Of a DNA stretch of 51,412 bases, positions 1 through 20,776 are shown in pieces. The stretch is taken from IMG/VR virus record IMGVR_UViG_3300021579_000010, positions 1-51,412 of that record; one strand, given 5' to 3'. Source of the DNA: a virus. Numbering within the stretch: position 1 is the stretch's first letter; every line of letters begins with the position of its first letter. The position numbers were made by a program, and so were the translations under genes. The notes under the pieces are model-generated. The model ran no database searches. It was not told the origin of the DNA and saw only the letters and a program-made list of their open reading frames with translations.

Positions 1-13
1 ATATATGGAAGCC
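1..13. repeat. Terminal direct repeat, left copy
   Basis: The first 13 bases (ATATATGGAAGCC) are repeated exactly as the last 13 bases at 51400-51412. This indicates a circular or circularly permuted molecule, or an assembly overlap. It could also be a short recombination core or cohesive-end sequence, but no integrase was seen that would support the former. Confidence 0.8.
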
Positions 14-1750: not shown

Positions 1751-3789
1751 TTGATGCCAACTACGACATAGAAAATGTAATAGCACAACTTGAAAGGATA
1801 CTCGATTCCGACAAGACTGCGCTATCTACAATTAAACCATCCGAATGGGTGGAGGCAAACCTGATTATGGAAGAGCCCTTTCCTGGGCCATATAGGTACA
1901 GCCTCACACCCTATTGCCGTGAAATCATAGACTGTTGGGCTACGGACCATCCGATGCTCTGGATAGCTATTATGAAGGGTGCGCAGATAGGCCTGTCATC
2001 AGGTGTCATAATACCTTCAATCGTGTGGTCAATAGCCAAAGACCCCTGCCGAATGCTGTTCACGGTAGGCTCGCCAGCCCTGATAGAGAAAGCCATGGAA
2101 AAGCTGGACAAGGCTATCTTTGGTGCCGGTGTAAAGTCTTTGATAGCTGACCAAAGTAATCGTAAGAAGAACCAGAAATCAGGTGATACCGATACCAAGA
2201 AAAGTTTTCCTGGTGGCTTCGTTGAAATATTCAACGCAGGTAACCCGAACCTGTTCAGGGATACCTCGCACAGGAAATTCTGGCTAGATGACTTTGAAGC
2301 AGTGCGCACCAGCAGTAAGAGCGCAGGTTCTACTAGGAAGGTGGCAGAGATGCGAGCAGCTGCATATGAGAACCGGCACAAGCTGGCATATGTCAGCACA
2401 CCGGAGTTAGCGGAGAACTCCAACATTGAAGAAGCATACTTACTTGGTGACCAGAGGAAGTATTACATCCCATGTCCGTGCTGTGGTGCGTTAATAGATT
2501 TGCACTGGTCTATTGAGAAAAATGGGATACAGGGTGGCATCGTCTGGGAGTGGAGTGATGAGGATATGAACGCACTTAAACCAGGTTCGGTGAAATACAG
2601 GTGCCAGGAGTGCGGTGATGCTTTCAACGATAAGACCAAGGATGCCCTGCTGAATGCAGGTAAGTGGATACCTACAGCACAACCAAGTAAGCCGGGGTAT
2701 TATAGTTATCACATAAGTTGCCTCTATGCACCAACAGGGTTCTATGGGTGGGAGAAGTATGTGTACGATTACCTAGAGGCCTGCCCAAGAAATCAGCCAC
2801 GTAAAGAGGCTTTGTATCAATCCTTCGTTAACACGGTATTAGGTCTTACCTACAAACCACCTACCGAGAACCTGGATGCTTCCAAGATTGCAGGTAATAT
2901 TGCAGACTATGAGCCGGGTGTAGTGCCTGACAGCCTCAGCGTAGAACACGGAAATGGCCACATAGTGATGCTCACATGTGGTGCTGACTTGAATGGTAAA
3001 ATGAAAGGCTCACAGCATAACGTGAATGATGCAAGGCTGGATTATGAGGTGGTAGCGCACTCTGAATCAGGTGCCACATACTCCATACTCCAAGGCAGCA
3101 TAGGTACATTCAAACCACTTGGCGGTAATGAAGGTGAGGACAGGGTGATTTGGTCATATGAGCAGGACGTGGAGAACTCTGTCTGGCCGGAGTTCGAGAA
3201 AATACTGAAACGTGAGTTCCCGATAGATTCAGGTGGTACAATACCAATAGCTGTTACCCTGCTTGACTGCTCGGCTTATGCCACTACAGCAGCATATCCA
3301 TTTTTGGAACGCACCAACTGCTATGTGGTAGGTGTGAAGGGCGAAAAAGAAGAAGAGTACAAGTACCTCGGAAGGAACACTAGATTTGTTAAGCCATCCA
3401 TGGAGCGACCCAAGGACTTGTGGATATTACAGGTAGGTCTGCTTAAAGACAGGAATGCAGAGTATATGGCTTTGAACCACGACAAGAAAACAAAGCAGCC
3501 TGACGGCTTTATGAATTTTCCGCATCCATCAAACAGGATGTATGAGTATGCCACATACTTCCAGCACTTCGAGGCAGAAGAGAAAAGGGTAATCAACAAA
3601 GATGGCAAAACATACTACAGGTGGGTTAAGAAAAACTCCGAGGTACAGAACCACTTCCTAGACTGCCGTGTGTACAACTTGGCAGGTAAGGAAATAATGA
3701 TGGCTATCTACGATAAGGAAACAGATGACCGCAGCAAGGTCAAAGGGGATTGGAGGGCTTTTGCTAAGATACTGGCAGAGGCAATATAA
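1747..3789 (+). CDS. Terminase large subunit, GpA-like
   Basis: The motor and nuclease that cuts concatemeric DNA and pumps it into the prohead. Its 680 residues match the GpA family size. Visible parts: an ATPase domain with a P-loop-like KGAQIGLSSG (77-86) and an acidic FWLDDFEAV (near 180), two CxxC pairs of a zinc-binding element (CPCC near 244 and CQEC near 286), and a C-terminal nuclease domain starting around VMLTCGADLNG (near 405), where the Asp would be a metal ligand. The start is GTG overlapping the previous stop. The next gene is separated by a promoter at 3783-3848, so packaging and tail genes can be expressed separately. Confidence 0.92.
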   Translation: MIDANYDIENVIAQLERILDSDKTALSTIKPSEWVEANLIMEEPFPGPYRYSLTPYCREIIDCWATDHPMLWIAIMKGAQIGLSSGVIIPSIVWSIAKDPCRMLFTVGSPALIEKAMEKLDKAIFGAGVKSLIADQSNRKKNQKSGDTDTKKSFPGGFVEIFNAGNPNLFRDTSHRKFWLDDFEAVRTSSKSAGSTRKVAEMRAAAYENRHKLAYVSTPELAENSNIEEAYLLGDQRKYYIPCPCCGALIDLHWSIEKNGIQGGIVWEWSDEDMNALKPGSVKYRCQECGDAFNDKTKDALLNAGKWIPTAQPSKPGYYSYHISCLYAPTGFYGWEKYVYDYLEACPRNQPRKEALYQSFVNTVLGLTYKPPTENLDASKIAGNIADYEPGVVPDSLSVEHGNGHIVMLTCGADLNGKMKGSQHNVNDARLDYEVVAHSESGATYSILQGSIGTFKPLGGNEGEDRVIWSYEQDVENSVWPEFEKILKREFPIDSGGTIPIAVTLLDCSAYATTAAYPFLERTNCYVVGVKGEKEEEYKYLGRNTRFVKPSMERPKDLWILQVGLLKDRNAEYMALNHDKKTKQPDGFMNFPHPSNRMYEYATYFQHFEAEEKRVINKDGKTYYRWVKKNSEVQNHFLDCRVYNLAGKEIMMAIYDKETDDRSKVKGDWRAFAKILAEAI

Positions 3790-3848
3790 CTCTATTTAAC
3801 TCTATTTAGCACTATCCAAAAAAGAATTTTTAAAACATTCATACTTTG
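3783..3848 (+). promoter_or_regulatory. Late promoter of the tail operon with conserved 33-bp element
   Basis: Positions 3783-3815 are identical over 33 bases to 18654-18686 upstream of the head operon. The element contains a tandem AACTCTATTT repeat. After 25 bases comes a near-consensus -7 box ATACTTTG (3841-3848), and the sheath ATG follows 17 bases later. The element sits where an activator would bind upstream of a weak -33 region. Confidence 0.7.
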
Positions 3849-3865
3849 CGGCAAAATACAATAAC

Positions 3866-5407
3866 ATGGGTAATAGTGCTGTACCGAGTAATTATGTAAC
3901 ATCTGTCTTAGGGTATGTGTTACAAAAGGGCTTTTTCAATCCAAGCTCACCGAACTTACCACAGAACATAAGCATCTTAGGTGAAGCGAACCATGCCAAT
4001 CAATCAGGCCTTGTACTCACAGGTACAATCATAACTTCTACTAAGCAGGCTGCTACACTTTACGGATATGGTTCACCTATCTACTCTGTTTGCCGCATCC
4101 TTTTCAACAATAATTGTACAGTTCCTGTCACTGTTTACCCACAGCTTGAAGCTGGTGGTTCTGTAGCTAAAGTGATTACGGTCACTCCTACAGGCACAGC
4201 CACGGCAAATGGCACAGTGAATTTTTGTGTATCAGGCCGTGAACAGGTTGACAGTCAATCCTACTCAATTAACGTAGTTATAGGTGATGACCCGACAGCT
4301 ATTTGCGATAAAATGCGCACTGCGTTTGCAGCCGTATTAGGTTGCCCACTTATAGGCTCAGGTACATCAACTTTTATCGGAACTGCAAAATGGCAGGGTC
4401 TTACAAGCAATGACATAAACATTGTTGTAGATATGCCAGCTACATCAATCGGTGTAACTTTCGCTGTGGTTAATACTACTGCCGGTGCTGGTACACCTTC
4501 TATTGGAAGTGGTACCGGTGCTACTACAGGCTTGGATTTCTTTGGTAACGCATGGAACACCATTGTTATCAATACTTATGGCCTTGTTGCGGGTACACTT
4601 ACGTCTTTGGAATCCTACAATGGTGTTCCTGATGAAACGAATCCTACCGGTCAGTATGCTGGTATCATAATGAGGCCATTACTGGCTTTATCAGGTACTA
4701 AGTTAGATGACCCTACTTCGATAACTGTTAACCACAGTACCCAAGTAACTGTGGTAACATGTCCAGCCCCTTTAACCTTAGGTATGCCTTATGAGGCTGC
4801 TGCTAACGTGGCAGTCCTCTGGGCTAAAACAGCACAGGATACCCCACACGGTGATATTCAAGGTCAAGCATATCCAGATATGCCAGGTCCTGATGTTGCA
4901 GTTAATCCTTCAATGTCAAGTGTGGCATTCAGGCAGTACTGTGTGACCCGTGGCTGCTCCACAGTGAATTTTCAATCAGGAAACGGCACACCTGGAACAG
5001 GTACATACACAATGGTGGATTTTGTCACTACATACAATGTATCCGGTGAGTTCCCTCCGTTCTACCAATACCCACGTACATTGAACATACACTTCAATTA
5101 CAAGTTCGGGTATTACCTGAAACAGTTGGAAACCTGCGAGGGTAAAGCACTGGTACCGGATACAAGTATTGTACGTGTAGGCAATGTAGTTAAACCTCTT
5201 ACATGGAGGGCTGTGCTAGAGCAGTACAATCTTGACTGTGAAAGCAGGGCTTTGATTGTGAATGCTGCTGCCAATAATAAATTAATTTCTGTAACAATCA
5301 ACAATTCCAACCCTAACAGGATGGACACTGAAGAGCCTATACAGATTTCAGGTTATGGCAGGATTTTCTCTACCGCAGTAAAAGGCGGGTTTTTCTTTGG
5401 CAATTAA
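3866..5407 (+). CDS. Contractile tail sheath protein
   Basis: The subunit of the contractile sheath around the tail tube, 513 residues, the usual size for a Mu gpL-type sheath. The N-terminus (PNLPQNISILGEAN, residues 32-45) matches the sheath family pattern. The middle is Gly/Thr-rich and variable. The C-terminal ~110 residues form the conserved core ending in GGFFFGN. It is the first gene after the conserved late promoter. The tube gene follows at 13 bases and the chaperone, tape measure and baseplate genes come next, as expected for a myovirus. Confidence 0.88.
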   Translation: MGNSAVPSNYVTSVLGYVLQKGFFNPSSPNLPQNISILGEANHANQSGLVLTGTIITSTKQAATLYGYGSPIYSVCRILFNNNCTVPVTVYPQLEAGGSVAKVITVTPTGTATANGTVNFCVSGREQVDSQSYSINVVIGDDPTAICDKMRTAFAAVLGCPLIGSGTSTFIGTAKWQGLTSNDINIVVDMPATSIGVTFAVVNTTAGAGTPSIGSGTGATTGLDFFGNAWNTIVINTYGLVAGTLTSLESYNGVPDETNPTGQYAGIIMRPLLALSGTKLDDPTSITVNHSTQVTVVTCPAPLTLGMPYEAAANVAVLWAKTAQDTPHGDIQGQAYPDMPGPDVAVNPSMSSVAFRQYCVTRGCSTVNFQSGNGTPGTGTYTMVDFVTTYNVSGEFPPFYQYPRTLNIHFNYKFGYYLKQLETCEGKALVPDTSIVRVGNVVKPLTWRAVLEQYNLDCESRALIVNAAANNKLISVTINNSNPNRMDTEEPIQISGYGRIFSTAVKGGFFFGN

Positions 5408-5420
5408 ATAAATAATTTAT

Positions 5421-5813
5421 ATGGCAATTTTAGCGGCTGGTGATATAAGGGAGATAACAGCAAATAACCCTGATGTAGGGATTATTTTCTTTGACCCGGT
5501 ATCCGGTGAAGATAACCAGATTGATGTCGGTGGCCTCCGTGCTGATGACACAAAAGCTGTTACCAGTTCAGGTACGCTTATCAACTCTTACAAGAGAGTG
5601 GTGGCTATGACTGAGATACTTGTGGCTGCTGACACATACCCTGATGCTGTGGCGATTGCAGGCAGTACCAAGGAAACAGTATGGACTATAGCCATGTTAA
5701 ATGGTACAGTCTACAAGGGCGCAGGTGTTATCCAGGGTGACCTTGCAGCGTCATTGTATAAAGGCACTTATAAGCTGTCAATTGTTTCAGGTTTAGGTTT
5801 TGTAATTCAGTAA
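5421..5813 (+). CDS. Tail tube protein
   Basis: A 130-residue predicted beta-rich protein directly after the sheath, matching the Mu gpM position and the size of small tube proteins. Tube subunits stack as hexameric rings and form the DNA channel pushed through the envelope on contraction. No sequence motif is diagnostic, so the call rests on order, size and composition. Confidence 0.75.
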   Translation: MAILAAGDIREITANNPDVGIIFFDPVSGEDNQIDVGGLRADDTKAVTSSGTLINSYKRVVAMTEILVAADTYPDAVAIAGSTKETVWTIAMLNGTVYKGAGVIQGDLAASLYKGTYKLSIVSGLGFVIQ

Positions 5814-5817
5814 TCAT

Positions 5818-6213
5818 ATGTTCGTAGAAAAAATCACACCAGAGTTGGCACTTAAAGAAGCCAACGACTATGCGGATAAAAAGAATTTGCTCCCAAGCCG
5901 CAGAGCAATGTTACAACCAGCAGTAAACACGCTGGCAGAGGCTATTCAATACGGTATTTGCGCCATACTTGATGACGGTTCTATATCGCACGTCTTAGTA
6001 AGTCCTGTGTTAAGCCTGACCACAATAGACTACAAGCCAAGGCTAAAACCTTTGGACGTTAAAAATGAAATAGCCAAAATAAAACAGGATAGCATCAGTG
6101 ACCGTACAGGTGTTTACCTTAAGCTGCTTACAGGGCTTACGGTAACAGAGATTAATTCATTGGAACCAACTGATAGCAGCATAGCTGAGGCGATTTCCCT
6201 TTTTTTCTGGTAA
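5818..6213 (+). CDS. Tail assembly chaperone, zero-frame product
   Basis: A 131-residue protein between tube and tape measure, the fixed place of the gpG-type chaperone that coats the tape measure before tube polymerisation. It ends at TAA 6211-6213, just after the run of seven T at 6200-6206. A second reading frame continues to the tape measure start, giving a frameshifted longer product (see the next entry). Confidence 0.8.
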   Translation: MFVEKITPELALKEANDYADKKNLLPSRRAMLQPAVNTLAEAIQYGICAILDDGSISHVLVSPVLSLTTIDYKPRLKPLDVKNEIAKIKQDSISDRTGVYLKLLTGLTVTEINSLEPTDSSIAEAISLFFW

Positions 6214-6407
6214 CTGATAAACAGGGAAGGGATTTATCTATTTGCCAAGGTGATACAGGAATCGAGGACAACATTAAAAACATAGTAAGAGTATATGTAG
6301 AGCATTTCAAGGTGGAGCCTTCCGTGATAGGGAGGCTTTTTTGGGATAGGGAGGACTGGGATGGTTTAGTATTCTGGTATGACCACATAAAAGATATTAA
6401 AAAGTAA
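5818..6407 (+). CDS. Tail assembly chaperone, -1 frameshift fusion product
   Basis: Slipping back one base at T TTT TTC (6201-6207) lets ribosomes continue in the -1 frame, reading CTG GTA ACT from 6207 onward. The extension is 66 codons and ends at TAA 6405-6407. It is rich in Asp, Lys and Trp (segments FWDREDWDGL and VFWYDHIKD) and leaves no gap before the tape measure ATG at 6407. The fusion would be about 196 residues, equivalent to lambda gpGT, whose T part recruits tube subunits. The extension has no good start of its own, which supports frameshifting. Confidence 0.85.
6201..6207 (+). promoter_or_regulatory. Programmed -1 frameshift site TTTTTTC
   Basis: A canonical X XXY YYZ heptamer in the correct phase (zero-frame codons TTT 6202-6204 and TTC 6205-6207), three bases before the zero-frame TAA. 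No long stem-loop was evident just downstream, so the heptamer and the nearby stop may be the main stimulators. Confidence 0.85.
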
Positions 6408-8287
6408 TGGCGCAACCTAATGTATTACAGACGTACTTCACAGCCGTAGACTTAATGTCAGGGCCGATGTCTCGTATGCAGCTAGGTCTGATGAAAATGA
6501 CTGCCTCAGCACATCAGTTACAGACAGCAATGGCGAGTACGAATGCCACGCTGATGTCTGTAGGCACTTCTGCGCTCATGACAGGCGCAGCCATAGCAAT
6601 ACCACTCGGATTGGCAGCTAATGAGGCTATGAAGTTTGAGAAAGCCATGGGTAATGTAGCTACCCTGGTGGACACCACGAAAGAGAGTATGCAGCAAATG
6701 GGCGATGAGGTGCTGAATATTGCCAAGCAGATGCCCGTACCAATCCACGACCTTACTACAGCTTTATATCAAATCAGAAGTGCCGGTGTTCCTGCGGAGA
6801 AAGCAATGGAAACACTTAATGCTTCAGCTATGTTGGCTACAGCAGGTTTGGGGGAAACCCGTGAGGCAGCGAACATGATAACCTCCGTTCTTGTGGATTT
6901 CAAAAATGAGGGTCTTAATGCTGCTGCTGTAGCAGATATACTTTTTAAGGCTGTTAAGAACGGTAAAACTACAGTGGCTCAAATGGCACCTGAATTTGGT
7001 AAGGTGGCACTTGCAGCAGCAGAGGTAGGGGTATCATTCAAAGAACTCATAGCTATGACTGCGGCCATCACCAACACAGGTGTGCAGACAGCAGAGGCAC
7101 AAACGGAAATAACAGGTGCGCTTATAGCCATGAATAAGCGTACTGCCGAGATGATAGATATACAGGAAAAGCTGTCAGGCACTATGGGTATATCCGGTAC
7201 AGAGTTCCTGCAATGGGCTGGCGGTGCTGTAGGTGCCATGAAAATGGTAAGCGACTACGCAGCATCCCACAGGCTTGACTTGTTCCACATCTACGGACGT
7301 AAAGAAGGTGCTTTGGCATCAGGTGCAATTATTAAAATGCAGAAGGAGAAGTTTGACGAACTTTATTCAACCATAATGCACGGTAATGCTATTCAGGATG
7401 CTTTCAACAAGCAGAACGAAACGGCAGCAGCAGCCATGCAAAAAGCTACAAGCCAACTCACGATATTAGGCATCCGCATAGGTGGCATCCTATTACCAGC
7501 ACTTGTAAAAGTAGGTGATGTCTTACTACCTGTGATAGAAGGGATTGGTAATTTTGCTAGGGAACACCGTGACCTTACAGCAATTATAGTAGGTAGTATA
7601 TCTATTTTCTCACTACTAGCCCTCACAATAGGTTCTGTAAGTCTAGCCATGAGTACCATGATTAAGGGTGCGGTTATGTGGAAAATGGTTATGGGGGGTT
7701 ACGCAATGCTCATGAATCGTGCTACATCTGCGCTTGTGGGTTTTTATATGGCTGTAGATGTAGGTTCAATCACGATATTAAGTGCTTTAGGTACTTTGGG
7801 GCTATATGTGGCTGCTATAGGTGCGTTAGCGGCAATGTTTGGCGGTAAATTGTATGACAACACAAAGCAGTATGATAAGCTGTTAGTCCAGACCAAAGAT
7901 GGCATGAAGGATTTGGTAAAACCTACGGAGCAAGCCACTATAGCACTTAATGATTACATAGATACGAAAAACAGATACCAAAAAACACAAAACTTTCAGA
8001 AGTTTTTAGACTATGAAAGATTAAAAGGTGGTGATTTTGCAGCACAAAGGGCCATACTTAAAAACGCTATTTTTTCAGAAGATAGAGATATCGTTTGGAA
8101 CCCTCAGCGTGAAGCACCTAAGCCGTCTGATTTTCCAGGTATTGATACTGTTGCCGCGGCTAAAGCAGATAGCACTATGAATGTGTACGTGAATACCAGC
8201 GTAGATAAAAATGGTAATAGTACAACCACAGTAACTAATAATGCAAACATTCCAATAAATGTAAGGCAAACAGGAGTACCACACTAA
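6407..8287 (+). CDS. Tail tape measure protein
   Basis: Sets tail length and is ejected ahead of the DNA. It has 626 residues, short for a myovirus tape measure, which predicts a short tail. The N-terminal third has Met/Ala-rich helices. Residues ~75-260 match the phage minor tail (PhageMin_Tail) pattern, with 'FEKAMGNVATLVDT' and repeated Ala-rich helices. Hydrophobic segments lie at about 355-375, 390-415 and 445-480. A short C-terminal domain is rich in Asn/Thr (about 585-626). The ATG overlaps the stop of the frameshifted chaperone product. Confidence 0.85.
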   Translation: MAQPNVLQTYFTAVDLMSGPMSRMQLGLMKMTASAHQLQTAMASTNATLMSVGTSALMTGAAIAIPLGLAANEAMKFEKAMGNVATLVDTTKESMQQMGDEVLNIAKQMPVPIHDLTTALYQIRSAGVPAEKAMETLNASAMLATAGLGETREAANMITSVLVDFKNEGLNAAAVADILFKAVKNGKTTVAQMAPEFGKVALAAAEVGVSFKELIAMTAAITNTGVQTAEAQTEITGALIAMNKRTAEMIDIQEKLSGTMGISGTEFLQWAGGAVGAMKMVSDYAASHRLDLFHIYGRKEGALASGAIIKMQKEKFDELYSTIMHGNAIQDAFNKQNETAAAAMQKATSQLTILGIRIGGILLPALVKVGDVLLPVIEGIGNFAREHRDLTAIIVGSISIFSLLALTIGSVSLAMSTMIKGAVMWKMVMGGYAMLMNRATSALVGFYMAVDVGSITILSALGTLGLYVAAIGALAAMFGGKLYDNTKQYDKLLVQTKDGMKDLVKPTEQATIALNDYIDTKNRYQKTQNFQKFLDYERLKGGDFAAQRAILKNAIFSEDRDIVWNPQREAPKPSDFPGIDTVAAAKADSTMNVYVNTSVDKNGNSTTTVTNNANIPINVRQTGVPH

Positions 8288-8685
8288 TGACGGACGTTCT
8301 AATATATGAAACAGGTAATGGTGGTGACATCATAGTCAAGCAGGGGGCAAATGATGTCACCACTGTGAATGGCTATGAGAACTCACCATATCTTGCCATG
8401 TTCGGTGGTTCAAACTGGTGGGGTAACTACATTGCTACATCTCCATACCTGTGCAAGACTGAAGCCGTACTGAAGAACCTGGTGTTAAACAGTGCAGGGC
8501 TACAGAACCTAGAGAAAGCCATAAACTCCGATTTGGATTATCTGAAGAACATACCCGGCACCACGTACAAGGTGTCCACTAAAATTGAATCACCATCTAG
8601 GCTAGCCATAAATATTGAAATCAACGGAAAAATATTTAGTTACCTTTGGAATCCTGATAGCATGTTTTTAACTTATTCAGTATGA
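8287..8685 (+). CDS. Baseplate protein, GP46-like
   Basis: A 132-residue protein matching the Mu gp46 (GP46) family: it opens with TDVLIYETGNGGDI and has a Trp-rich centre (GGSNWWGNY). Homologues form part of the baseplate wedge. It starts on the A of the tape measure TAA and overlaps the next gene by four bases. In Mu this gene follows gpN, gpP and gp45. Here it directly follows the tape measure, so the block order is permuted. Confidence 0.75.
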   Translation: MTDVLIYETGNGGDIIVKQGANDVTTVNGYENSPYLAMFGGSNWWGNYIATSPYLCKTEAVLKNLVLNSAGLQNLEKAINSDLDYLKNIPGTTYKVSTKIESPSRLAINIEINGKIFSYLWNPDSMFLTYSV

Positions 8686-9818
8686 CAACCATACCCACCA
8701 TATCGACCTTAAAGAGTAACCTGATTTCTGACTTTAACGCGGAGTTTGACATTAGTGTGAACCCTTACGGTAAGGCTTTCCTTGAAGCCCTTGCCACTGT
8801 GCTTGCTGGTATGTTGTGGATATGTTACACAGCTATAGGGTTTGTGCAGGGTAACCTATGGGTGGATACATGTGATTATGAAACACTTATCAGGTTCGGG
8901 TATATCATACTCGCCAGATACCCTAATGAGGCTATAGCCGGGCAGTACACATGCACTGTTACAGGTACTACGGGCGCAGTGATACCTAATGCCACTGTAT
9001 GGGCTGCTGATAGCACAAGCACTTCGCCAGGGCAATTGTTCACCATCCTTGGCGGGGCTTATACAATGCCCGGAACTACCGGCACAATTACGATACAGGC
9101 CTTATCAGGTGGTTTATCATCCAGGTTGTCTGTAGGTGACACACTGACCTCACAGGCACCCATACTCAATGTTAGCAACAACCTTACTGTCACGGTTGAA
9201 GTTTTAGCACCTATCAACGCTGAAACCGAAGCTCAGTACAGACAAGCCGTAATAAATAAAATCCAGCTTACTCCCGGTTCTTGGTCAGCAGTTGATTACC
9301 GTCTGGTGGGTGCCGGGGTAGCTGGTGTCTATAACACATATGCGTATGCTACATCAGGTGCATCTAATGAGGCATCGGTGTTTTTACAAGGTCCTATCCC
9401 ACTCGCATATCCGGGACCCTCAGTAAGTGGAACCGTGCTTACCAATTATGAAACAGCACTTGAACTGGTAAGACCCATGACAGTGTTCCTTGTGAACTAC
9501 TATAGCAGCCCAATCAATAACATTGATGTCACGATAGTGATGGGTGGATTTCCAGCATTCACAACAGCACAGAAAGCACTGATAAGTTCTGCACTGACAA
9601 GTTTTGTAAATAGTGTTCACCCGTTTATACTAGCGTGTGATAATATTTCAGACAGGAATGATACAATAGCCACATACAACCTGAGTAGCACAATATCTGC
9701 TGCTGTACCGGGTTATGGGTTTAGTGCAGTGACATTCACGGTAGCAGGTACACCAGCCACGCTTTGGCTCGCTGACTTAGGTAATATACCATATTTAAAC
9801 TCAATTACGTATGCTTAG
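8682..9818 (+). CDS. Baseplate wedge protein, gp47 / baseplate J-like
   Basis: A 378-residue protein with the baseplate J layout: an N-terminal helical part (YGKAFLEALATVLAGMLW, residues 28-45), a central Gly/Thr-rich beta region, and a C-terminal part beginning at INAETEAQYRQAV (about 178-190), the most conserved segment of the family. It links wedge to hub and triggers sheath contraction. It overlaps both neighbours slightly, so gp46, gp47 and gp48-like genes form one translationally linked set. Confidence 0.85.
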   Translation: MTTIPTISTLKSNLISDFNAEFDISVNPYGKAFLEALATVLAGMLWICYTAIGFVQGNLWVDTCDYETLIRFGYIILARYPNEAIAGQYTCTVTGTTGAVIPNATVWAADSTSTSPGQLFTILGGAYTMPGTTGTITIQALSGGLSSRLSVGDTLTSQAPILNVSNNLTVTVEVLAPINAETEAQYRQAVINKIQLTPGSWSAVDYRLVGAGVAGVYNTYAYATSGASNEASVFLQGPIPLAYPGPSVSGTVLTNYETALELVRPMTVFLVNYYSSPINNIDVTIVMGGFPAFTTAQKALISSALTSFVNSVHPFILACDNISDRNDTIATYNLSSTISAAVPGYGFSAVTFTVAGTPATLWLADLGNIPYLNSITYA

Positions 9819-10623
9819 TAATGACCTGCAATGGCTATCCAGGATACTCTACCCTAACGGTAGGGCCTATTCTATGCCTGTACCGCAGTTCACACCTGAC
9901 GAATACACTACGGAAGATGGTTCAGAGGTCTATACTACCGAGGATGGCCTAGAATCGTACACGGCAGAGGGCGCACTTGTTACCGGAGGGTATTTATGGA
10001 GGTTACACCGGGCTTTGAATAAGAGCTTTGAAAGGCTATGGGCTGATGCCAAGTCCATCAGCTACAGCATGTTACCGGACAACCCATTTTTCACGATGGA
10101 TGATGCTGTAGCGTGGTACAGGAGGCTAGGATTGTATAACTCAGGCTCAGTGTCACTAACAGATATGAAGGCCGCTATCAGGCAGAAACTAAGCTTTCCT
10201 GTTACACCACTTAATGCGCAACACTACACATATATTGAGGCACAGCTACAGGCGGCGGGGTTTGATGTGTATGTGTATGAAAATAGGTTTTACGTAAGTT
10301 CTACGTGGGTAACAGAAACACCATCAGAGATACTTGGAACTGATGAAGGTAATGCCTACCTGAATGAGTTTAGCCTAGGTGATACAGACTTAAATCATGA
10401 GTGGGATTTTGATAATGTCACACTTATAGCTAACTACCTTGAAGAGAGTAAAGATGCACATTTTGCTATAGCACCAAATTACAGGTCAACTTTTTTTGTG
10501 GCATCCGCAACGATAGATACTTTTGCATCTGCCCCTCTAGCCCGTAAGCAGGAGTTCCGGCAGTTATTAATGAAACTTAAACAGCAGACAGCCATTGGCT
10601 TTCTGTTCATAAACTATACATAA
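9811..10623 (+). CDS. Baseplate protein, gp48 / DUF2313 (YmfQ)-like
   Basis: 270 residues, in the position of Mu gp48. The start (LQWLSRILYPNGRAYSMP) and the block around RQKLSFPVTPLNAQHYTYIEAQLQAAGFDVYVYE (about 127-160) match the YmfQ/gp48 pattern. An inserted repeat near residues 32-50 reads YTTEDGSEVYTTEDGLESYTAEG, three similar short units. This family connects the baseplate wedge to the tail fibres. Confidence 0.72.
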   Translation: MLSNDLQWLSRILYPNGRAYSMPVPQFTPDEYTTEDGSEVYTTEDGLESYTAEGALVTGGYLWRLHRALNKSFERLWADAKSISYSMLPDNPFFTMDDAVAWYRRLGLYNSGSVSLTDMKAAIRQKLSFPVTPLNAQHYTYIEAQLQAAGFDVYVYENRFYVSSTWVTETPSEILGTDEGNAYLNEFSLGDTDLNHEWDFDNVTLIANYLEESKDAHFAIAPNYRSTFFVASATIDTFASAPLARKQEFRQLLMKLKQQTAIGFLFINYT

Positions 10624-10625
10624 AA

Positions 10626-11207
10626 ATGGCATTTCCAATATCAGCACTTGACGGAGTAGTAACAGGACCGGGCGCAGGGTATCCTTATGGGGATATAGTA
10701 GATTCTGCGGTAGGCACGGCAGGCACAAGGGTTAACAGGAAATTCACTGATGACCTGATGCAGACATCGCAGAAGCTGATGGCAGATGCAGGTATTACAC
10801 CTAATGGCAACCCGGATAATTCCATCAACGGTTATCAGATATTTAATGCAATAATCAATTGCAGGCCATTTAGTAGCACAGGTATTGTGTTCACTAACTC
10901 AGGGCAGAACGTGTGGGGCAATTCAGGTGGCGGCAGTTACAATGTCGGTTTTCGGCAAGCAGGTAATATGGTTAACTTATGCGGAGCTGCAACCAATTCA
11001 GGTATCGCAGGCTCAGCTACAGTTAATATAATGACACTACCCGTTGGTGCAAGACCCGCATCCAGTGTTACCATAGCGGTGCTTACCGACACGGGGGCTA
11101 TGCACAGTATAAGTATTTCACCCGCCGGACAGGTTACCTCATCGGATACAACGACTACTTTTGGTGGTACAGTGTATTTAGATAACGTGTCATTCCGCTT
11201 TGTATAA
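10626..11207 (+). CDS. Tail fibre or baseplate-appendage protein
   Basis: 193 residues placed after the gp48-like gene, where receptor-binding or fibre genes usually sit. The N-terminal half is likely the attachment domain. The C-terminal half (from about residue 80) is Gly/Thr/Ser-rich and predicted beta, ending VYLDNVSFRFV. It is very short for a whole fibre, so it may be a tip or collar protein. Its 3' end overlaps the reversed gene beyond it by 18 bases. Confidence 0.6.
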   Translation: MAFPISALDGVVTGPGAGYPYGDIVDSAVGTAGTRVNRKFTDDLMQTSQKLMADAGITPNGNPDNSINGYQIFNAIINCRPFSSTGIVFTNSGQNVWGNSGGGSYNVGFRQAGNMVNLCGAATNSGIAGSATVNIMTLPVGARPASSVTIAVLTDTGAMHSISISPAGQVTSSDTTTTFGGTVYLDNVSFRFV

Positions 11208-11861
11208 CAGCTTATGATTACACAGGTACAACCCAACAGGAAGTGTGCTGTAATCGTAAGTTAGGAACTGACCCATCAGGTTATAAACGGGAGAAGGTTC
11301 TAAGTTCTTTGATAAAGGGGAAACACCCAAGGCACCTGCGCCCAACACACGTACAGGGTAGTCCTGTGTCGTACCGTAGTTACCTGTGGTTTCACTACCG
11401 ACAGCACACAGCCTAGGTGATGCAGTTCCAGAGTACCGGACAATCCGCATACGGGTATCACAAGGTATCGCTGTAACAGGTACGTTAATGTGGAAGGACC
11501 TAACCTCGGTAGTACTTAGGGCAGCTAGTACAAAAGTGGTATCATAACCACCGAAAAAGGATATGTATCCACTTGCAGTATTGTAACACAAAGCAATTCT
11601 CACCCACGAAGTGCTAGGACAAGGTTCAAAAGCGATAGTTGTGTTGAAAGAGGAATCAGGGAACAGCAGTATTTCAGGTAGGTTATCAAACAGTGTGTAA
11701 TGACCAAGACCTGGCACAGAGTTGTCCAGATTGGATATTTCCACACGAGAGATACCACCTCCGCAAGTGTTGCAGTTGTTCAAGGCAGCGCAGTATGGTG
11801 CCGGATTAGTGTGCTGGCCATAAGATGCCACGCAAAGAAGTAATAAAATAAGTGTTCGCAT
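11190..11861 (-). CDS. Secreted cargo protein with T9SS-like C-terminus
   Basis: A lone leftward gene inside the rightward tail operon. The 223-residue product begins MRTLILLLLCVASYG, a Sec signal peptide that should be cut before Gln16. The mature part is Cys-rich (a CNTCGGG cluster, about six more Cys). The last ~35 residues (YNLMGQ, then LPVGLY, then KLLYK) resemble the type A sorting domain that routes proteins through the Bacteroidota type IX secretion system, but lack the upstream PNP strand. A perfect -7 box TATCTTTG lies three bases before the ATG. It is probably a moron expressed independently of the tail genes. Function unknown. Confidence 0.7.
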   Translation of the reverse strand: MRTLILLLLCVASYGQHTNPAPYCAALNNCNTCGGGISRVEISNLDNSVPGLGHYTLFDNLPEILLFPDSSFNTTIAFEPCPSTSWVRIALCYNTASGYISFFGGYDTTFVLAALSTTEVRSFHINVPVTAIPCDTRMRIVRYSGTASPRLCAVGSETTGNYGTTQDYPVRVLGAGALGVSPLSKNLEPSPVYNLMGQFLTYDYSTLPVGLYLCNHKLLYKAE

Positions 11862-11889
11862 AGTCAAAGATAAGTAATATATTTGAGGT
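11862..11889. promoter_or_regulatory. Divergent near-palindromic promoter pair
   Basis: The 28-base gap holds a leftward -7 box (CAAAGATA on the plus strand, read as TATCTTTG) and a rightward box TATATTTG (11878-11885), arranged as a near-palindrome around AGTAA. The start codons lie only 3 and 4 bases beyond the boxes, so any transcripts would be leaderless or nearly so. Clear -33 elements were not found. Confidence 0.45.
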
Positions 11890-12645
11890 GTGGCAGTTTT
11901 TAACGTAAATAGCGCAGCCCTGTCAGTCTATGTAGCGGTTCTTCAGCACATGAAGAAATCAGCTTTACCTGTGGCTATACGACAGACGTTGAATGATATG
12001 GCTTTTGACACTAAAACCAACACAATGCCAGCAGAGGCACACAAAGACTTTATCCACAGGAAGGATACATTCTTTAAAGCGAACTCTAGGGCAGAAGTGG
12101 CTAAAGGTTTTGATGTCAACACTATGAGGTCACAGGTGTATTTTAAACCAAAAGAGAAAGATAAAAGTCATTCTGTGGAGGACTTGGAGGAACAGGAAGA
12201 AGGTACACCGATTAAGTACAGCAGGGCTTTTGTCGGTCTTGCTACATCACGTAGTAGCAACAGGTGGAATAAAAATATCAGGAACAGGAACAGGCGTAAT
12301 AATATGCCTGATGCAATTGATGCTAAGAATTACGTGAGTAAGTATGCACCAACAGACAAGAGTAAATATGTGGCAGCAGCTATATGGGCTGCTAAAACAG
12401 GCGCGCTCGTCATAGGTAATAAGGTCAATGGCAGAGGTAATAAAATGGCGTGGAGGCCAGACCACTTGAATAGGTTTAATGGTGACACATTTGTAGTGGC
12501 AACACCTCTTTTTGCTGTTAAAAGGGCAAGGATAGTAAAACCACCAGCAACCCACTTTATGAGAGATGCTAGTGAAGAGAGCCTGAGAAAAGGTGATAAA
12601 TTCTTTGCTAAAAATGTAAATTTGCAAATAGCTAAAATAAAGTAA
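11890..12645 (+). CDS. Unrecognised tail-module protein, basic
   Basis: A 251-residue basic protein between the fibre region and the gpN-like gene. The N-terminal third (ALPVAIRQTLNDMAFDTK) has the look of tail-completion or virion morphogenesis proteins. The middle contains an Asn/Arg-rich stretch near residues 120-140 that could bind nucleic acid. The start is GTG four bases after a -7 box; an in-frame Met21 is an alternative. It likely takes part in tail completion, by context only. Confidence 0.6.
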   Translation: MAVFNVNSAALSVYVAVLQHMKKSALPVAIRQTLNDMAFDTKTNTMPAEAHKDFIHRKDTFFKANSRAEVAKGFDVNTMRSQVYFKPKEKDKSHSVEDLEEQEEGTPIKYSRAFVGLATSRSSNRWNKNIRNRNRRNNMPDAIDAKNYVSKYAPTDKSKYVAAAIWAAKTGALVIGNKVNGRGNKMAWRPDHLNRFNGDTFVVATPLFAVKRARIVKPPATHFMRDASEESLRKGDKFFAKNVNLQIAKIK

Positions 12646-13907
12646 TGGCAACAGATTGGCGGCAGCTTATTGGAGAGAACTTAATCATCAACACAGGTGA
12701 CACTAAGGTGTATAATCCTGACTGGATGGCTGCTACTTTTTCAAGTAAGTCCAAAGAGTTCAACATAGCCCAATTTGTATTTAAAAATATTCCAGGCACT
12801 TTAGTCGACAGGGGAGAACCTATGTCAAATGTGTATGATTTGGAGATGTATTTCCAAGGCACTGACACACTGGATATTGCAGCCGAGTTCTGGGAATCCG
12901 CAAACGACAAGAACGCTTGGACTATACAACACCCTTTTTATGGCAGTTTGTACGTCCAGCCCATAAATCTTTCACAGGATAATGCAGGTTGGAATGTGAC
13001 AAAAATTACAGGTCAAGTAATTGAAACAATCCTCAGCAATACTAATCAGGCCGCTAATGGTGGTCCGTCACAGGCAGTATCATTAGCTGAAACTGCTAAG
13101 AAGGTTATGGTGAGCAGGTTTTCCGACAGAACAGCTACAATGAGTGTAGGTGCTTTGCAGAATCAGACCAATGGTATTAATGGTATTTACCCGGCAGTGA
13201 TTGGTAATATCCGTTCATCACAGGATGAAGTGAATACATACACTAATTACTTTAACCAGGCATTAAGTGTTATTGATACGGCACTTTACAGCACAGGTGA
13301 TATAATTATAGCAGGGCAAAATCTAATTTGCGCACCATCCAACTTCCTAATATCAGTGAAGTCCAGGCTTAGTATGTATGCTAGTATGCTTGAAGTATAC
13401 GGGCTACAAATCACCAGCATACTTGCAATGTTCACTCCTACAGCGCAACTAAAGAATCTGTATGCGAGCAATGCAGGCAGCACAGTTCTAGGGCTATGCC
13501 AATCCACGATGCTGAATATCACGGATGATTATGACTACAGGCCTGACATTCTGGACGTAATTACTTCTGTAGTTAATGGTTACAACAGTTACGTTGCCAA
13601 TTTGAATCTAATACAATCGCCAAACAACAGTACACCGGATAGCTATGTTCCTGATTACGATATAGTCAGCAATGTAAAGCTGGTAGTAGTGAACGTGCTG
13701 ATACAGTTACACTTCTACTACAATGCAGCTAAGACCAGAAGGAACATGACATTGACTGAGGATACCAATGTGATACTATTGGCTAACCAGCTTTACGGTA
13801 TGCTTCCTGATGATAGCACTATTACAACTTTAATGAAAAATAACAATATCGGGTACTCTGAAATTTTAGTTCTTCGCAAAGGGAGAAATATAATATACTA
13901 TGTATAG
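12645..13907 (+). CDS. Tail hub protein, Mu gpN (DNA circularisation)-like
   Basis: 420 residues. The N-terminal ~100 residues (from MATDWRQL through DRGEPMSNVYDLEMYFQGTD) match the DNA_circ_N family of Mu gpN, a baseplate hub protein named for a minor effect on DNA circularisation. The remainder is helical and family-specific. It is followed at once (7-base overlap) by the gpP-like gene, the normal Mu pair. Confidence 0.72.
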   Translation: MATDWRQLIGENLIINTGDTKVYNPDWMAATFSSKSKEFNIAQFVFKNIPGTLVDRGEPMSNVYDLEMYFQGTDTLDIAAEFWESANDKNAWTIQHPFYGSLYVQPINLSQDNAGWNVTKITGQVIETILSNTNQAANGGPSQAVSLAETAKKVMVSRFSDRTATMSVGALQNQTNGINGIYPAVIGNIRSSQDEVNTYTNYFNQALSVIDTALYSTGDIIIAGQNLICAPSNFLISVKSRLSMYASMLEVYGLQITSILAMFTPTAQLKNLYASNAGSTVLGLCQSTMLNITDDYDYRPDILDVITSVVNGYNSYVANLNLIQSPNNSTPDSYVPDYDIVSNVKLVVVNVLIQLHFYYNAAKTRRNMTLTEDTNVILLANQLYGMLPDDSTITTLMKNNNIGYSEILVLRKGRNIIYYV

Positions 13908-15210
13908 TACTGAAGTATACATATCAGGTCATAAAGTCGACTTAGTGAATCAGATTAGCCTCAATCTGAAGTATGACAGTATTGCTGATACTTTTTCATT
14001 TACAGCATATTATGATGTAAAGAACCCGGTACACAAGAAAATATTTAGACCACTTAGTTATCAAACAGTAAAAATAGTTCATGCAGGCATTACGATGCTC
14101 ATAGGAACTGCATTACGAAATGAGTTCTACTCAGCAGGTGACCCACCTAAATCCCTTGTACGTGTAAGTGGGTATTCTATCACGGGTATATTACAGGAGT
14201 GTACTGTTGGCGGGTTCCAGCCTAATTATGTTAGCAGTACCAATAATCCCGGTGACCCATCAAAGCACGTACCCACTCAGTTTGATAATAACACACTCGC
14301 CCAGATAGCTAATAAAGTCTGTGGTATATTTCCGTTAAAAGTGATTGTGGATAAGGAGCTATTAAGTGATAAGGTATTCAACGCACCATATCAGCAGGTA
14401 GCCATAAAACAGGATGAATATCTGTCTGATTTCCTGGATAATCTGTGCGCCCAAAAGAATGCAATACTGAGCCACGATGCTTATGGTAACATCCTTATTA
14501 CCAGAGCGCACACAGACGCATTACTGACTACCACGACAACTTTAGTAGCTACACAGCCTGTAGCACGTAATCCAGCGATTCAGGGCGCACCACAAGGCAC
14601 TTTGTTGAAAACCACCACTACATCTTCTGCGAGGCACATACTGCACAGGTTTGATGGCACAGACTACATAAGTGCATCAGCTTGCTATAACGGGCAGAAC
14701 ATGCACAGTATCATCCAAGTTCTAGGGCAGAATGACAGCACTGATGAAGTGGTGCAGGAAGGTTCAGCATATAACCCGTACATACCATTACCTGAGAATT
14801 TCCGAGCAGCCATTGTAGGGGGCCACGGCTCTGACCCATCGAGTTCCAACGTGATACAGGTAGATGAGTTCGGGTATTATGGCGTAATAGGGCCACTAAG
14901 GATGCGTAGGTATATCCAGAGCGTAGGTAATGATAATGATGTAAAACTCACAGCACGTAGCTTGCTTAATGATGAATTACGCAAGGCCGTGGTAGTTACG
15001 ATAGAAATAAACGGGTGGCACCTGTCAGGGAACCTCGTTACACCAAATCAGTTAATAACTATTAAGGACGTAGATTTGTACCTAGCAGGTGAAGTCAAGC
15101 TATTTATACAGGAAATAAGCTATAGCACAGACCCTACTAAAAACGTAGCCACTTTGACCTGTGTGTTACCTGAGGCATTTAACGAGGAAAAAATAAAAAG
15201 GATATTCTAA
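13900..15210 (+). CDS. Baseplate hub protein, Mu gpP / gpD-like
   Basis: 436 residues matching the late-control gpD / T4 gp27-like hub fold: N-terminal beta domain (VYISGHKVDL...SLNLKYDSIADTFSF), a middle domain with DEYLSDFLDNLCAQKNAILSHDAYGNILITR (about 168-198), typical of the family, and a C-terminal beta domain. The hub forms the ring that holds the central spike, whose gene follows with a one-base overlap. Confidence 0.8.
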   Translation: MYSTEVYISGHKVDLVNQISLNLKYDSIADTFSFTAYYDVKNPVHKKIFRPLSYQTVKIVHAGITMLIGTALRNEFYSAGDPPKSLVRVSGYSITGILQECTVGGFQPNYVSSTNNPGDPSKHVPTQFDNNTLAQIANKVCGIFPLKVIVDKELLSDKVFNAPYQQVAIKQDEYLSDFLDNLCAQKNAILSHDAYGNILITRAHTDALLTTTTTLVATQPVARNPAIQGAPQGTLLKTTTTSSARHILHRFDGTDYISASACYNGQNMHSIIQVLGQNDSTDEVVQEGSAYNPYIPLPENFRAAIVGGHGSDPSSSNVIQVDEFGYYGVIGPLRMRRYIQSVGNDNDVKLTARSLLNDELRKAVVVTIEINGWHLSGNLVTPNQLITIKDVDLYLAGEVKLFIQEISYSTDPTKNVATLTCVLPEAFNEEKIKRIF

Positions 15211-15731
15211 TGTCAGTCATAGCAAAATTAGATACAACTAAACTTAAAGACGGTATCCGCACTTACCAGGCGAACCAAATGGGAAACTATGACCCTAGTA
15301 ACTCCACAGAAGTAGCACCTCCGGGGGTTGATTGTGCGCCACCTGACGTTAAGAACTTGAAAGTAATATACGATGACACAGCACGTAACGGTAAATCTGT
15401 TTGTTACGGTGTCATCAACACTAATCAGAAATCACTTGCTGGTGAAGTAAGGATGTACTCTCAGGACGGTGAAACCGAGAAAGCTAAAATATGGATTCAT
15501 AAAGATGGTAAAATTGAAATAGGGGGTACAAGTGATGCTGTAAATCCGAACCATCTTGTAAGATTTGAAGATTTAAACACTATATTGCAAAATCAGGTAA
15601 TAATTCCCATAAATTTGCAATTAGACTTAATAGCTGCTGCTATCAATGTGATTGCGCCCGGAAGTTATACACCTACGCACCTATCACTTGATTTGACTTT
15701 AGCTAAAACCGATGACCTTTTAATAATTTAA
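15210..15731 (+). CDS. Central spike protein, Mu gp45-like
   Basis: A 173-residue protein immediately after the hub gene, where the baseplate spike (gpV/gp45) is encoded. The middle beta-rich part (VRMYSQDGETEKAKIWIHKDGKIEIGG, about 72-98) matches the repeating OB/beta-helix part of spike proteins. The membrane-piercing tip forms from the C-terminal part. Confidence 0.7.
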   Translation: MSVIAKLDTTKLKDGIRTYQANQMGNYDPSNSTEVAPPGVDCAPPDVKNLKVIYDDTARNGKSVCYGVINTNQKSLAGEVRMYSQDGETEKAKIWIHKDGKIEIGGTSDAVNPNHLVRFEDLNTILQNQVIIPINLQLDLIAAAINVIAPGSYTPTHLSLDLTLAKTDDLLII

Positions 15732-15732
15732 C

Positions 15733-16047
15733 ATGGCAGTATTCGCATCAGAAATAGATTATATAAATGCACAGGATGCCAAAGACCAAATAGCGGCGTA
15801 TACAGCAGCTATTACAGCTTTGTCTACCACTGTCATGACTACAGTAGCTAAAGCTAACGTACAAGAGTACAGGCTATCGGATGGGCAAACAGACATCCGA
15901 AAAACATACAGAAACCCTAAAGAGGTACTAGATATGATTTTGGTACTTCGCAGGCTTAGGCAGTTGGCCATAAATGATATTACATCGCAACAGGTACGAC
16001 TTGTATCATCACCGAACTTTATAATTGATACTCCATGGGGATATTAA
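15733..16047 (+). CDS. Head-tail joining protein, gpW-like
   Basis: A 104-residue protein just before the portal. An N-terminal helical half is followed by IRKTYRNPKEVLDMILVLRRLR (about 56-77), the recognisable pattern of lambda gpW-type head-completion proteins, which plug the portal after packaging. Its end overlaps the portal start by 13 bases, linking the two. Confidence 0.65.
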   Translation: MAVFASEIDYINAQDAKDQIAAYTAAITALSTTVMTTVAKANVQEYRLSDGQTDIRKTYRNPKEVLDMILVLRRLRQLAINDITSQQVRLVSSPNFIIDTPWGY

Positions 16048-17822
16048 AAAATATTACTTCATTTTTCAGCCCTACAGTAGAGGTATCTAGTGTAGTAAAA
16101 CCTGTACCATTTACACCTAGAGAGCCTGATGCCAACAGGCAGGAGATAGTGATGGGCAGACCTATGGCTAGTAGCTTTGACTGGCAAGCGATACCTATGA
16201 GTGCGCCAATGTTACAAAAGATGTTTTCTGGTGAAAAGGATGCCTACTCAATAGGTCCTATCATAAAGTACAACATGGATAACCAAGCCCTGGGGCAAAG
16301 GTCTTGGCAGTTATACATTGAGGGTGAGACCATTCACACGGTAGTCAACCAAAAAGCTAAATGGGTAGTAGGCAAGGCACTCAGGCTACAATCAGCACCT
16401 AAGAAGTCATACTTGAAAAAGAAGGGTGTTAGCCTAGATGAAAAGGGATGGGAGAAGCTGACTAAAGATATAGAAGAGCTTTGGGATTTGGCTAGTAACA
16501 AGTCAAGCATGATGGACTATGCTGGTCGTGACCCGTTTAATAAGTTAACCAAACGCATATATCTGAATAAGTCGAATTGGGGTGATGTGCTAGTTATCCA
16601 CCGGATTGACAAGAACAACATAGTTACCACTCAGATTGTAGATGGCCAGTGGGTGGTTACCCCTGTAGGTAAAGTCGTAATAGGTGGTGAAACCAAGTTA
16701 GTAGATAACAAAGTAGGGTATGATTGGGTTTGGGAAGAAACAGGTAACAGGGTAAGAAATGGTGTCGAGATAGGCAGTAAAGGTGAACACGTAGCCTATT
16801 GGCTTAGGGATGGCATATCATTGGTTTACAAAAGGATTCCGGCTAAGAACAGGCAGGGGCTACTTATGGCCTACCTTGTGTATGGTACGGAGAACAGACT
16901 TGCTGATACTAGGGGTATTCCTGAAACCACAACCAACATGCAGTCAAGCAAACAGCTTGACGAGTTCACGGATGCCTTTGTATCATCCGCAGTTGAGGAG
17001 GCTAAACTGACGTACTTCTTCACCCACGAAAAAGGTACAGAAGAGAAAGACCCAAGGCGTGATGCTATGGCTAAGATAGTAGGTAGCAGAGGGGCTTCAC
17101 TGGATAACCCTGTCACCATCGATGGGCAGGAACTGGCTAACAGGGTTGCAGCTACTACAAAGAAAATGACATTCAACCTTGGAGAAGGTACTGATGTCGT
17201 TACACCTGAAAGCAGGAGGCTACTGAATTATGCAGAGTTCCGAAAGTCACGGTTTGAAGCTGACAGTGCTACGGTAGGCATACCACCTGAGGTAGCATCG
17301 CAACTGTATGGGTCAAGTTATTCAGCGAGCAGGGCAGCTACTAACGGATGGCAGTACATGCTGAACATTGACAGGGATGACTTTGGCAACCAGCTTCACC
17401 AGAGGGTGTATAACCTACAGCTTATGGTGTGGATAATGGCGGGTGAAATAGATGCACCCGGTTACCTTGAAGCATTCTTTGCCGGTGATGCAATGACCAT
17501 AGCAGCTTGGCAGTATGCAGAGTGGAGAGGCGCACCAGTGCCACAGATAGACGAGAAAAAAGAGGTTGAGGCTATCAGGCTTAAACTCGGATTAGGCTCA
17601 GTACATATGCCACTCACAGACTTTGAATCAGCTTGTGATGCACTTGGTACAGGTGACTACACCGACATATCAGCGCAATACTCACAGGAAATGAGAGATG
17701 CGGATGACCTTGGTATTGAGAAGGTTGCAACACGCGGTACGGATATTGAGAACTTCGATGACCCTAAGGAAGATGATAAGGGTAAACCAGGACGTAAGCT
17801 CAATGACGGAACTAAAGGATAA
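16035..17822 (+). CDS. Portal protein
   Basis: The dodecameric portal forms the head vertex for DNA entry and tail attachment. 595 residues is a normal length. Visible features: an N-terminal extension, a wing region (HTVVNQKAKWVVGKALRL), a middle segment with WGDVLVIHRIDKNN (about 180-193), and a stem/crown region (PPEVASQLYGSSYSASRAATN), the characteristic portal signature in many phages. A charged C-terminal tail ends KPGRKLNDGTKG. It closes the tail-plus-portal operon and is followed by a strong terminator. Confidence 0.85.
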   Translation: MGILKNITSFFSPTVEVSSVVKPVPFTPREPDANRQEIVMGRPMASSFDWQAIPMSAPMLQKMFSGEKDAYSIGPIIKYNMDNQALGQRSWQLYIEGETIHTVVNQKAKWVVGKALRLQSAPKKSYLKKKGVSLDEKGWEKLTKDIEELWDLASNKSSMMDYAGRDPFNKLTKRIYLNKSNWGDVLVIHRIDKNNIVTTQIVDGQWVVTPVGKVVIGGETKLVDNKVGYDWVWEETGNRVRNGVEIGSKGEHVAYWLRDGISLVYKRIPAKNRQGLLMAYLVYGTENRLADTRGIPETTTNMQSSKQLDEFTDAFVSSAVEEAKLTYFFTHEKGTEEKDPRRDAMAKIVGSRGASLDNPVTIDGQELANRVAATTKKMTFNLGEGTDVVTPESRRLLNYAEFRKSRFEADSATVGIPPEVASQLYGSSYSASRAATNGWQYMLNIDRDDFGNQLHQRVYNLQLMVWIMAGEIDAPGYLEAFFAGDAMTIAAWQYAEWRGAPVPQIDEKKEVEAIRLKLGLGSVHMPLTDFESACDALGTGDYTDISAQYSQEMRDADDLGIEKVATRGTDIENFDDPKEDDKGKPGRKLNDGTKG

Positions 17823-17856: not shown

Positions 17857-18016
17857 AGCACCTAATAAGGCCTAATAGTAATAGAATTATGATAAAGCTA
17901 AACAAAACTGTTTGTTCTCTTAGATATGATTTTCTGGGTGGGTGCAATACGTCAAGCAAAGATTCAATAAACTCTTTTTTAGCTTTTTCATAAGCATCAG
18001 TAGGTTCTATATTCAT
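17855..18016 (-). CDS. Small single-pass membrane protein
   Basis: 53 residues: a charged N-terminal half and one C-terminal transmembrane segment (VLFSFIIILLLLGLI, about 37-51). It is the last gene of a four-gene leftward cassette. ATG at 18016 is preferred; GTG at 18052 would add 12 residues. It overlaps the preceding gene by 20 bases. Candidate for envelope-directed effects such as superinfection exclusion, by context only. Confidence 0.5.
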   Translation of the reverse strand: MNIEPTDAYEKAKKEFIESLLDVLHPPRKSYLREQTVLFSFIIILLLLGLIRC

Positions 18017-18197
18017 GATGTTTCTCTTTTTTAAAGTAATATGTGTAAACACCAGCTACATATAGAACACAGACCAGCACCCATCCTTCTGCACAGAGGC
18101 GGTTCAACATGTCAATCTCCGTTTCCGTGTTGCTATTCCACAGGATTTGAAAACCACTTATATCCCTCGTTTCAATCTTGTATTCTATTTGTGCCAT
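17997..18197 (-). CDS. DUF4177-like small protein
   Basis: A 66-residue protein with the DUF4177 pattern: a beta strand of IEYKIETRD, then MLNRLCAEGWVLVCVLYVAGVYTYYFKKE, i.e. an 'LN-x-C-x-EGW-x-LV...YYFKR' motif. The family is widespread and of unknown function. The third gene in the leftward cassette, overlapping both neighbours. Confidence 0.65.
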   Translation of the reverse strand: MAQIEYKIETRDISGFQILWNSNTETEIDMLNRLCAEGWVLVCVLYVAGVYTYYFKKEKHHEYRTY

Positions 18198-20277: not shown

Positions 20278-20305
20278 TTATAAACCCTTTTAAAGCATAA
20301 ATAAA

Positions 20306-20749: not shown

Positions 20750-20776
20750 TCTATAACCTTATAAAATAATAATACT

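Follow-up and report, generated by a model that had tools for sequence, protein, structure and literature searches.

A 33-bp element shared by two late operons of a myophage as the putative operator of a ribbon-helix-helix regulator

To our knowledge, late gene control in phages of Bacteroidota is little described. Here we ask why one 33-bp sequence, AATATAACTCTATTTAACTCTATTTAGCACTAT, stands identically before the tail operon (copy T) and before the head operon (copy H) of a single phage, and which protein might read it there. The window, that is, the whole stretch of DNA analysed, is an IMG/VR virus record of 51,412 bases. It belongs to a myophage, with sheath and tube genes together with VapE-like, Pol A and SNF2-type replication genes. 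Its terminase and sheath have their named relatives in Cellulophaga and Flavobacterium phages, and related head proteins are found on contigs assigned to Pedobacter, Christiangramia and Allomuricauda, so Bacteroidota hosts are very likely; the major head protein as sole query found no relatives. The ends of the window (1-13 and 51400-51412) have 13 nt in common (ATATATGGAAGCC), and the record may therefore be a circular complete genome.

Two copies of the element in the window

The original prediction described a 33-bp identity located 25-26 nt upstream of TAnnTTTG-like boxes before the tail and head operons (Table 1). The identity is exact, and at both sites 26 nt separate the element from its box, the TA of which starts 27 nt past the last base of the element. 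The operon assignments hold as well: the gene at 3866 encodes the tail sheath, and 19291-21889 encodes the protease, the decoration protein and the major head protein. The box motif is right for the head promoter, but the tail box reads TAnTTTG (or TAnnTTGC), with one base fewer between TA and TTTG. The element is built of tandem repeats as proposed, although three 10-bp units describe it better than two: TAACTCTATT twice, then a degenerate third unit, TAGCACTAT followed by C or T. Both copies begin with AATA, which at T is inside the terminase gene, the end of which overlaps the first 7 bases of that copy.

Scans of the window allowing up to 3 and up to 6 mismatches found no third copy, and 100 dinucleotide-preserving shuffles gave 0 matches. 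As predicted, the element is missing from the promoters for packaging (just before 515) and for replication (near 30790); read by eye, these contain TTG (TTG-N20-TAGCTTTG and TTG-N21-TACATTTG, respectively). A TTG at the '-33' position is absent from the T and H promoters of the window. Transcription of the tail operon likely reads through to the portal gene (16035-17822); a minus-strand ORF within its span (11190-11867) is not part of it.

Table 1 Features of the late control region in the window
Feature	Position	Strand	Remarks
Element copy T, putative operator	3783-3815	+	Units 3787-3796 TAACTCTATT, 3797-3806 TAACTCTATT, 3807-3816 TAGCACTATC
-7-like box TACTTTG, tail-operon promoter	3842-3848	+	Predicted start ~3854
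Tail operon	3866-16047	+	Sheath (3866), tube, chaperone-like, tape measure, wedge, hub, spike
Two further leftward ORFs	18185-18472 and 17997-18197	-	Apparently in one transcript with the regulator gene
Putative late regulator, RHH-like, 58 aa (MKKQQNRIQITLGNEDKARKEAIEQHYEMPLCTMLIQPVKDLIMKEHDKLPESKKAKI)	18469-18645	-	Based on position and predicted fold
-7 box TATATTTG of the leftward regulator gene	18652-18659	-	
Element copy H	18654-18686	+	Units 18658-18667, 18668-18677, 18678-18687 (TAGCACTATT)
-7 box TATTTTTG, head-operon promoter	18713-18720	+	Predicted start ~18725
Head operon	18740-24164	+	Secreted-type protein, protease, decoration, major head protein, head closure, others
Head maturation protease	19291-20277	+	
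Decoration protein	20306-20749	+	
Major head protein	20777-21889	+	

The tail-promoter box, TACTTTGC, TATTTTGC or TACCTTGC (window 3842-3849; relatives L004, L028, L029 and G008), matches the SM5 motif, TAnnTTGY, which in F. psychrophilum has been ascribed to a possible alternative sigma factor (PMC9723704); the head promoter of the window has TAnnTTTG instead. Other repeats occur elsewhere in the window. Tandem 31-bp repeats (TAACACTATAGCATAGCACCCTGGCAGCAGG-like) follow two 21-bp repeats at 51059-51278, in the interval that separates the leftward early genes from the packaging genes; they are iteron-like and possibly mark an origin, and their unit starts with TAACaCTAT, which faintly resembles the late element. 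A 60-nt block with a strong hairpin occurs twice, 92% identical (46866-46950 and 47238-47330), just upstream of leftward early gene starts, and an imperfect 83-nt inverted repeat (72%) surrounds a 30-nt palindrome upstream of the packaging genes (113-381).

Paired elements and their spacing in related phages

The 22-mer core of the element had no match in an exact scan of IMG/VR, and the exact sequence is almost private to the window phage. Absence of the element from related genomes in which the promoters persist had been named as grounds against the original prediction. The sequence is indeed absent from them, but relatives carry another element at the same place and spacing, so the absence of the exact sequence does not refute a control system. 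The predicted phage-specific control of the two late operons is instead supported by about 30 relatives with private paired elements at equal spacing.

Local alignment revealed at the homologous place, in 21 of 22 genomes, an element specific to the genome and common to its sheath and head-operon promoters; this count admits inexact or inverted dyads, and the T/H element of G028 is shorter and weaker. In an exact-match comparison of the 250 bp upstream of the sheath gene with the 5.5 kb upstream of the major head protein gene, the longest T-H match reached at least 16 bp in 13/22 genomes, against a maximum of 15 bp among 462 cross-genome pairs. When contigs with the same order of late genes were scanned for exact repeats, G004 (35 bp), G005 (20 bp) and G008 (17 bp) each showed a private repeat right in front of both the sheath gene and the head operon. 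Within a genome, the putative operators are essentially confined to T and H.

The T and H regions of ten further contigs served as a later test set. A common T/H operator was found in 9/9 of the contigs that bear the ribbon-helix-helix (RHH) gene described below (58 bp in G037, 40 bp in G035, ~29 bp in G044 and ~60 bp in G040; dyads in G036, G038, G039 and G051; a perfectly inverted dyad core in G042), the head region having been re-anchored on the RHH start in three of the nine (G044, G051 and G040). G048, the sole test contig without an RHH gene, has no common T/H operator.

The element of most relatives is a dyad of the TTCC-N9-GGAA type, such as TTCCATTTGAAATGGAA in G005 or TTCCGTTATCAACGGAA in G033, and tandem rather than dyadic elements occur in the window and in G020. 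The window element, which forms no hairpin, is thus the least typical member of the group. L029, a near relative of the window phage, carries two 10-bp units (TAGTTCTATT / TAGTTCTAAA), both altered by the same base changes, and the last unit ends 25 nt short of TACTTTG, the same distance as in the window; a degenerate version of the tandem pattern matched 59 IMG/VR contigs, among which L174 (= L029) alone is syntenic. The H dyad is wholly or nearly the reverse complement of the T dyad in G012, G019, G025 and G042, and G008, G024 and G030 are similar, which points to a two-fold protein site and not to a passively copied block.

Such inversions bear on the idea that the T and H promoters are duplicated modules, made alike by recombination or recent copying and served by no dedicated regulator. 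Long blocks (~58 to 105 bp, mostly including the -7 box) that are identical or almost so in G016, G020, G023, G037 and G040 would suit this idea, but in most genomes the operator and the -7 box alone match while the DNA between them has diverged, the dyad of one site is inverted in several genomes, the spacing is kept, and copying predicts neither the adjacent RHH gene nor the association between its strand and the operator (below). We consider it very unlikely.

The spacing between operator and -7 box is equal at T and H in essentially every genome, with 26/26 nt in the window and 24/24, 29/29, 30/30 or 22/22 in others. When the best box was picked independently for each site, the spacing was exactly equal in 12 of 21 genomes, compared with a mean of 1.2 and a maximum of 6 in 2,000 permutations. 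Normalised to a 17-bp dyad core, the gap to the box is 27-29 nt in about ten genomes with unlike sequences. The dyad centre is ~36.5 nt upstream of the box, that is, at about -49 if the box occupies -12 to -5 (PMC9723704); the dyad core of relatives then spans about -57 to -41, and the tandem units of the window about -67 to -38.

The elements could alternatively be terminators of the upstream operon (a hairpin followed by a T-run), as short hairpins before T-runs in several relatives would suggest, for example TTCCGTTATCAACGGAACTTTTTTT in G033. We give this next to no credence: the window element lacks a hairpin, many dyads lack a T-run, neither the fixed spacing to the -7 box nor the sharing between T and H would be expected, and at H the divergent RHH gene usually faces the element with its 5' end, not its 3' end. 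The terminator and simple-duplication readings were both rejected.

The original prediction of an activator that replaces a missing -33 element is supported, with activation inferred from position and spacing. A TTG at -33 occurs in 5/42 T and H promoters against a background of 13%, which fits, although this lack counts for little because TTG is barely enriched even in crude control promoters (16% vs 13%).

A separate kind of repeat was seen in the cultured Flavobacterium phage FCV-1 (L013), which has no RHH match: promoter blocks recur at 3361, 28857 and 42717, two of them carrying the palindrome ACAAAAGTTTTGT before TAGAATGAAATATTTGTG.

A ribbon-helix-helix gene beside the head-operon element

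In the relatives, a small gene runs divergently from the head operon, its promoter overlapped by the element and its start within a few to ~30 nt of the operator in most genomes. Its product is typically ~60 aa long (range 53-120 codons) and RHH-like, for example MAKKYNEIRITNVPDDLKEQLENIAKYQGLTLSQSLKPVLREYVNTK in G030. A profile trained on 19 sequences matched 20 of 22 genomes, including G028, which is outside the training set, with one strong member per genome and always beside the H operator. The same profile matched 45 of 59 new contigs, 42 by rule and three (L234, L238 and L293) by eye.

The family has a predicted beta-alpha-alpha fold. The AF2 model of L306, made from 26 sequences (pLDDT 88), has an extended N terminus and helices at 14-27 and 31-45, and nearly all its named top Foldseek matches are CopG, Arc and RHH antitoxins; no PDB match had an E-value <0.1, as expected for so short a chain. 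Matches of the family to RHH_5, RHH_1 and FitA-like_RHH fall below the curated cut-off, the comparison with the PHROG 'Arc-like repressor' gave 2e-4, and AvtR gave a weak profile match (E = 0.011). The PHROG family, CopG and the Pfam RHH models are the nearest named families. Two fused RHH repeats are apparent in some regulators (G008, G013, G019, L227, L241, L298 and L301), and that of G026 has an HTH-like domain ahead of its RHH.

A perfect TAnnTTTG box is found in 43 of 65 RHH promoters (2.5 in shuffles), with the operator just upstream of it or overlapping it. The box most often ends exactly 4 nt before the ATG (for example, in L299, L303 and G005), so a leaderless mRNA is predicted.

The window has a gene of the same size, strand and place, which diverges from the head operon at a distance of 12 nt from the operator. 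Copy H overlaps its promoter from the -7 box upstream, and with 6 nt from box to ATG the message would be almost leaderless. A single-sequence AF2 model of the 58-aa product has an extended N terminus and helices at 14-26 and 31-49, with weak Foldseek matches to the RHH proteins ParD2 and PrpA. Its match to the RHH family profile is not significant (2.8 bits; hhalign probability 3.5%), so membership is likely, not proven, and tblastn found no relatives of it in the phage collection or IMG/VR. This gene, and not that at 46347-46865, which the original prediction had put forward for a gel-shift test, is the conserved candidate; the 46347-46865 product has no Pfam match, and no link between it and the element was found.

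The operator may be real and yet belong to another phage or host protein, the adjacent RHH protein controlling its own gene or acting otherwise. One genome speaks for this: G004 (IMGVR_UViG_3300033067_001759) carries its 35-bp T/H element at 16093 and 29037, neither the profile nor inspection of the head locus revealed an RHH gene there, and its operators must be served by another regulator. That family membership of the window protein is not provable by sequence points the same way. For the group as a whole, however, no DNA-binding gene other than the RHH gene was seen in a constant position next to the operator, the other window genes with wide homologues are structural or packaging genes, and the RHH strand varies with the operator. 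The chance that another protein is the regulator is, in our view, rather small.

RHH proteins read DNA through their N-terminal strand (Arc, MetJ and CopG). Arg at strand position 3 goes with operators of the TTCC/TCCC type: such operators are found in 14/17 genomes whose regulator has this Arg and in 1/13 others (Fisher P = 1e-4, with genomes treated as independent and shared ancestry uncorrected). The idea had been recorded before the test set was fetched, and the test set alone gave 4/4 vs 0/5. In a general correlation test the signal is marginal (Mantel r = 0.15, P = 0.04). It is possible, and we propose it tentatively, that the late switch of this whole group of Bacteroidota myophages depends on an RHH activator of ~60 residues, with recognition strand and operators varying jointly from phage to phage, so that each phage has a private code for its late genes. 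If true, such a code could, for example, keep co-infecting relatives from triggering each other's late genes.

Late control and known systems

The element is probably the operator of a phage RHH regulator that co-controls both late operons, activating them and repressing its own gene. The 58-aa regulator would be transcribed early from a -7 box of its own, in the direction opposite to the head operon, and its dimers would bind H and, 15 kb off, T. Bound at about -67 to -38 (-57 to -41 in relatives), directly upstream of the empty -33 position, they would recruit host RNA polymerase to promoters that have a -7 box alone. The operator covers or abuts the -33 side of the RHH promoter, so binding should repress the regulator and leave the late core promoters free; H-bound regulator would cover its own promoter and shut its gene down. 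The switch to making heads and tails would then be delayed and would limit itself. We infer the binding and the direction of control from position and spacing.

RHH proteins are usually repressors, and the known small ones of tailed phages, for example Arc and Mnt of P22, repress. The main rival, which we nevertheless think unlikely, is an Arc/CopG-like repressor that silences the late operons and its own gene early and is later lost or titrated by DNA replication. The nearest named families, the usual role of RHH proteins and the overlap of the operator with the regulator's own promoter all favour it. At T and H, however, the operators precede the core promoter (about -57 to -41), where a bound protein is badly placed to block polymerase; a repressor needs no exact spacing to the -7 box, yet spacing is kept within genomes and, for dyads, between genomes; and the -33 element is at background level.

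If the protein is the proposed activator, the locus provides a candidate regulator, its sites and a spacing rule, and the relatives offer a natural series of ~30 regulator-operator pairs. It opens the questions of how a tiny RHH protein could activate a sigma-A promoter without a -33 element, and how the DNA specificity of such a protein and its sites evolve together. The parts could be used as orthogonal promoters for Bacteroidota genetics.

In the open-access literature, we found no published account of paired late operators with an RHH regulator, and no papers dealing with late promoters of Flavobacterium phages or with RHH proteins as late activators. Bacteroidota sigma-A promoters have a -7 box TAnnTTTG at -12 to -5 (PMC9723704); the T, H and RHH promoters use the same box, but T and H have no -33 TTG above background. 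The closest functional parallel is late-gene activation by Ogr of P2, delta of P4 and B of 186, with four late promoters that carry TGT-N12-ACA (PMC3931495). As with Ogr, a phage protein would co-activate several structural operons through the same site upstream of each, a dyad in most relatives. Ogr, however, is a zinc-finger protein whose site is conserved among its relatives, whereas here the candidate is an RHH protein, its gene abuts one of its own two sites and the site differs from phage to phage; in place of CX2CX22CX4C the 58-aa protein has a single cysteine, and in place of TGT-N12-ACA the operator has TAACTCTATT repeats.

Arc, Mnt of P22 and CopG are likewise small beta-alpha-alpha proteins, and Arc and CopG are among the Foldseek matches of the family model. 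Their targets are early or plasmid genes, which they repress by binding within the core promoter, whereas the sites here are upstream of late promoters at fixed spacing. Among archaeal virus RHH regulators, AvtR represses its own gene and can activate its neighbour, and F55 binds tandem repeats ATAGATAGAGT (PMC5569661). AvtR offers a viral precedent for combining self-repression with activation of a neighbour, and the window element is tandem as in F55 (reverse complement AAATAGAGTT). Both differ in working with the archaeal transcription machinery and without a head-tail pair of sites, and in sequence the profile comparison gave weak matches. Phage late activators are known as a kind; their proposed implementation by an RHH protein, its placement and the genome-private operators appear to be new.
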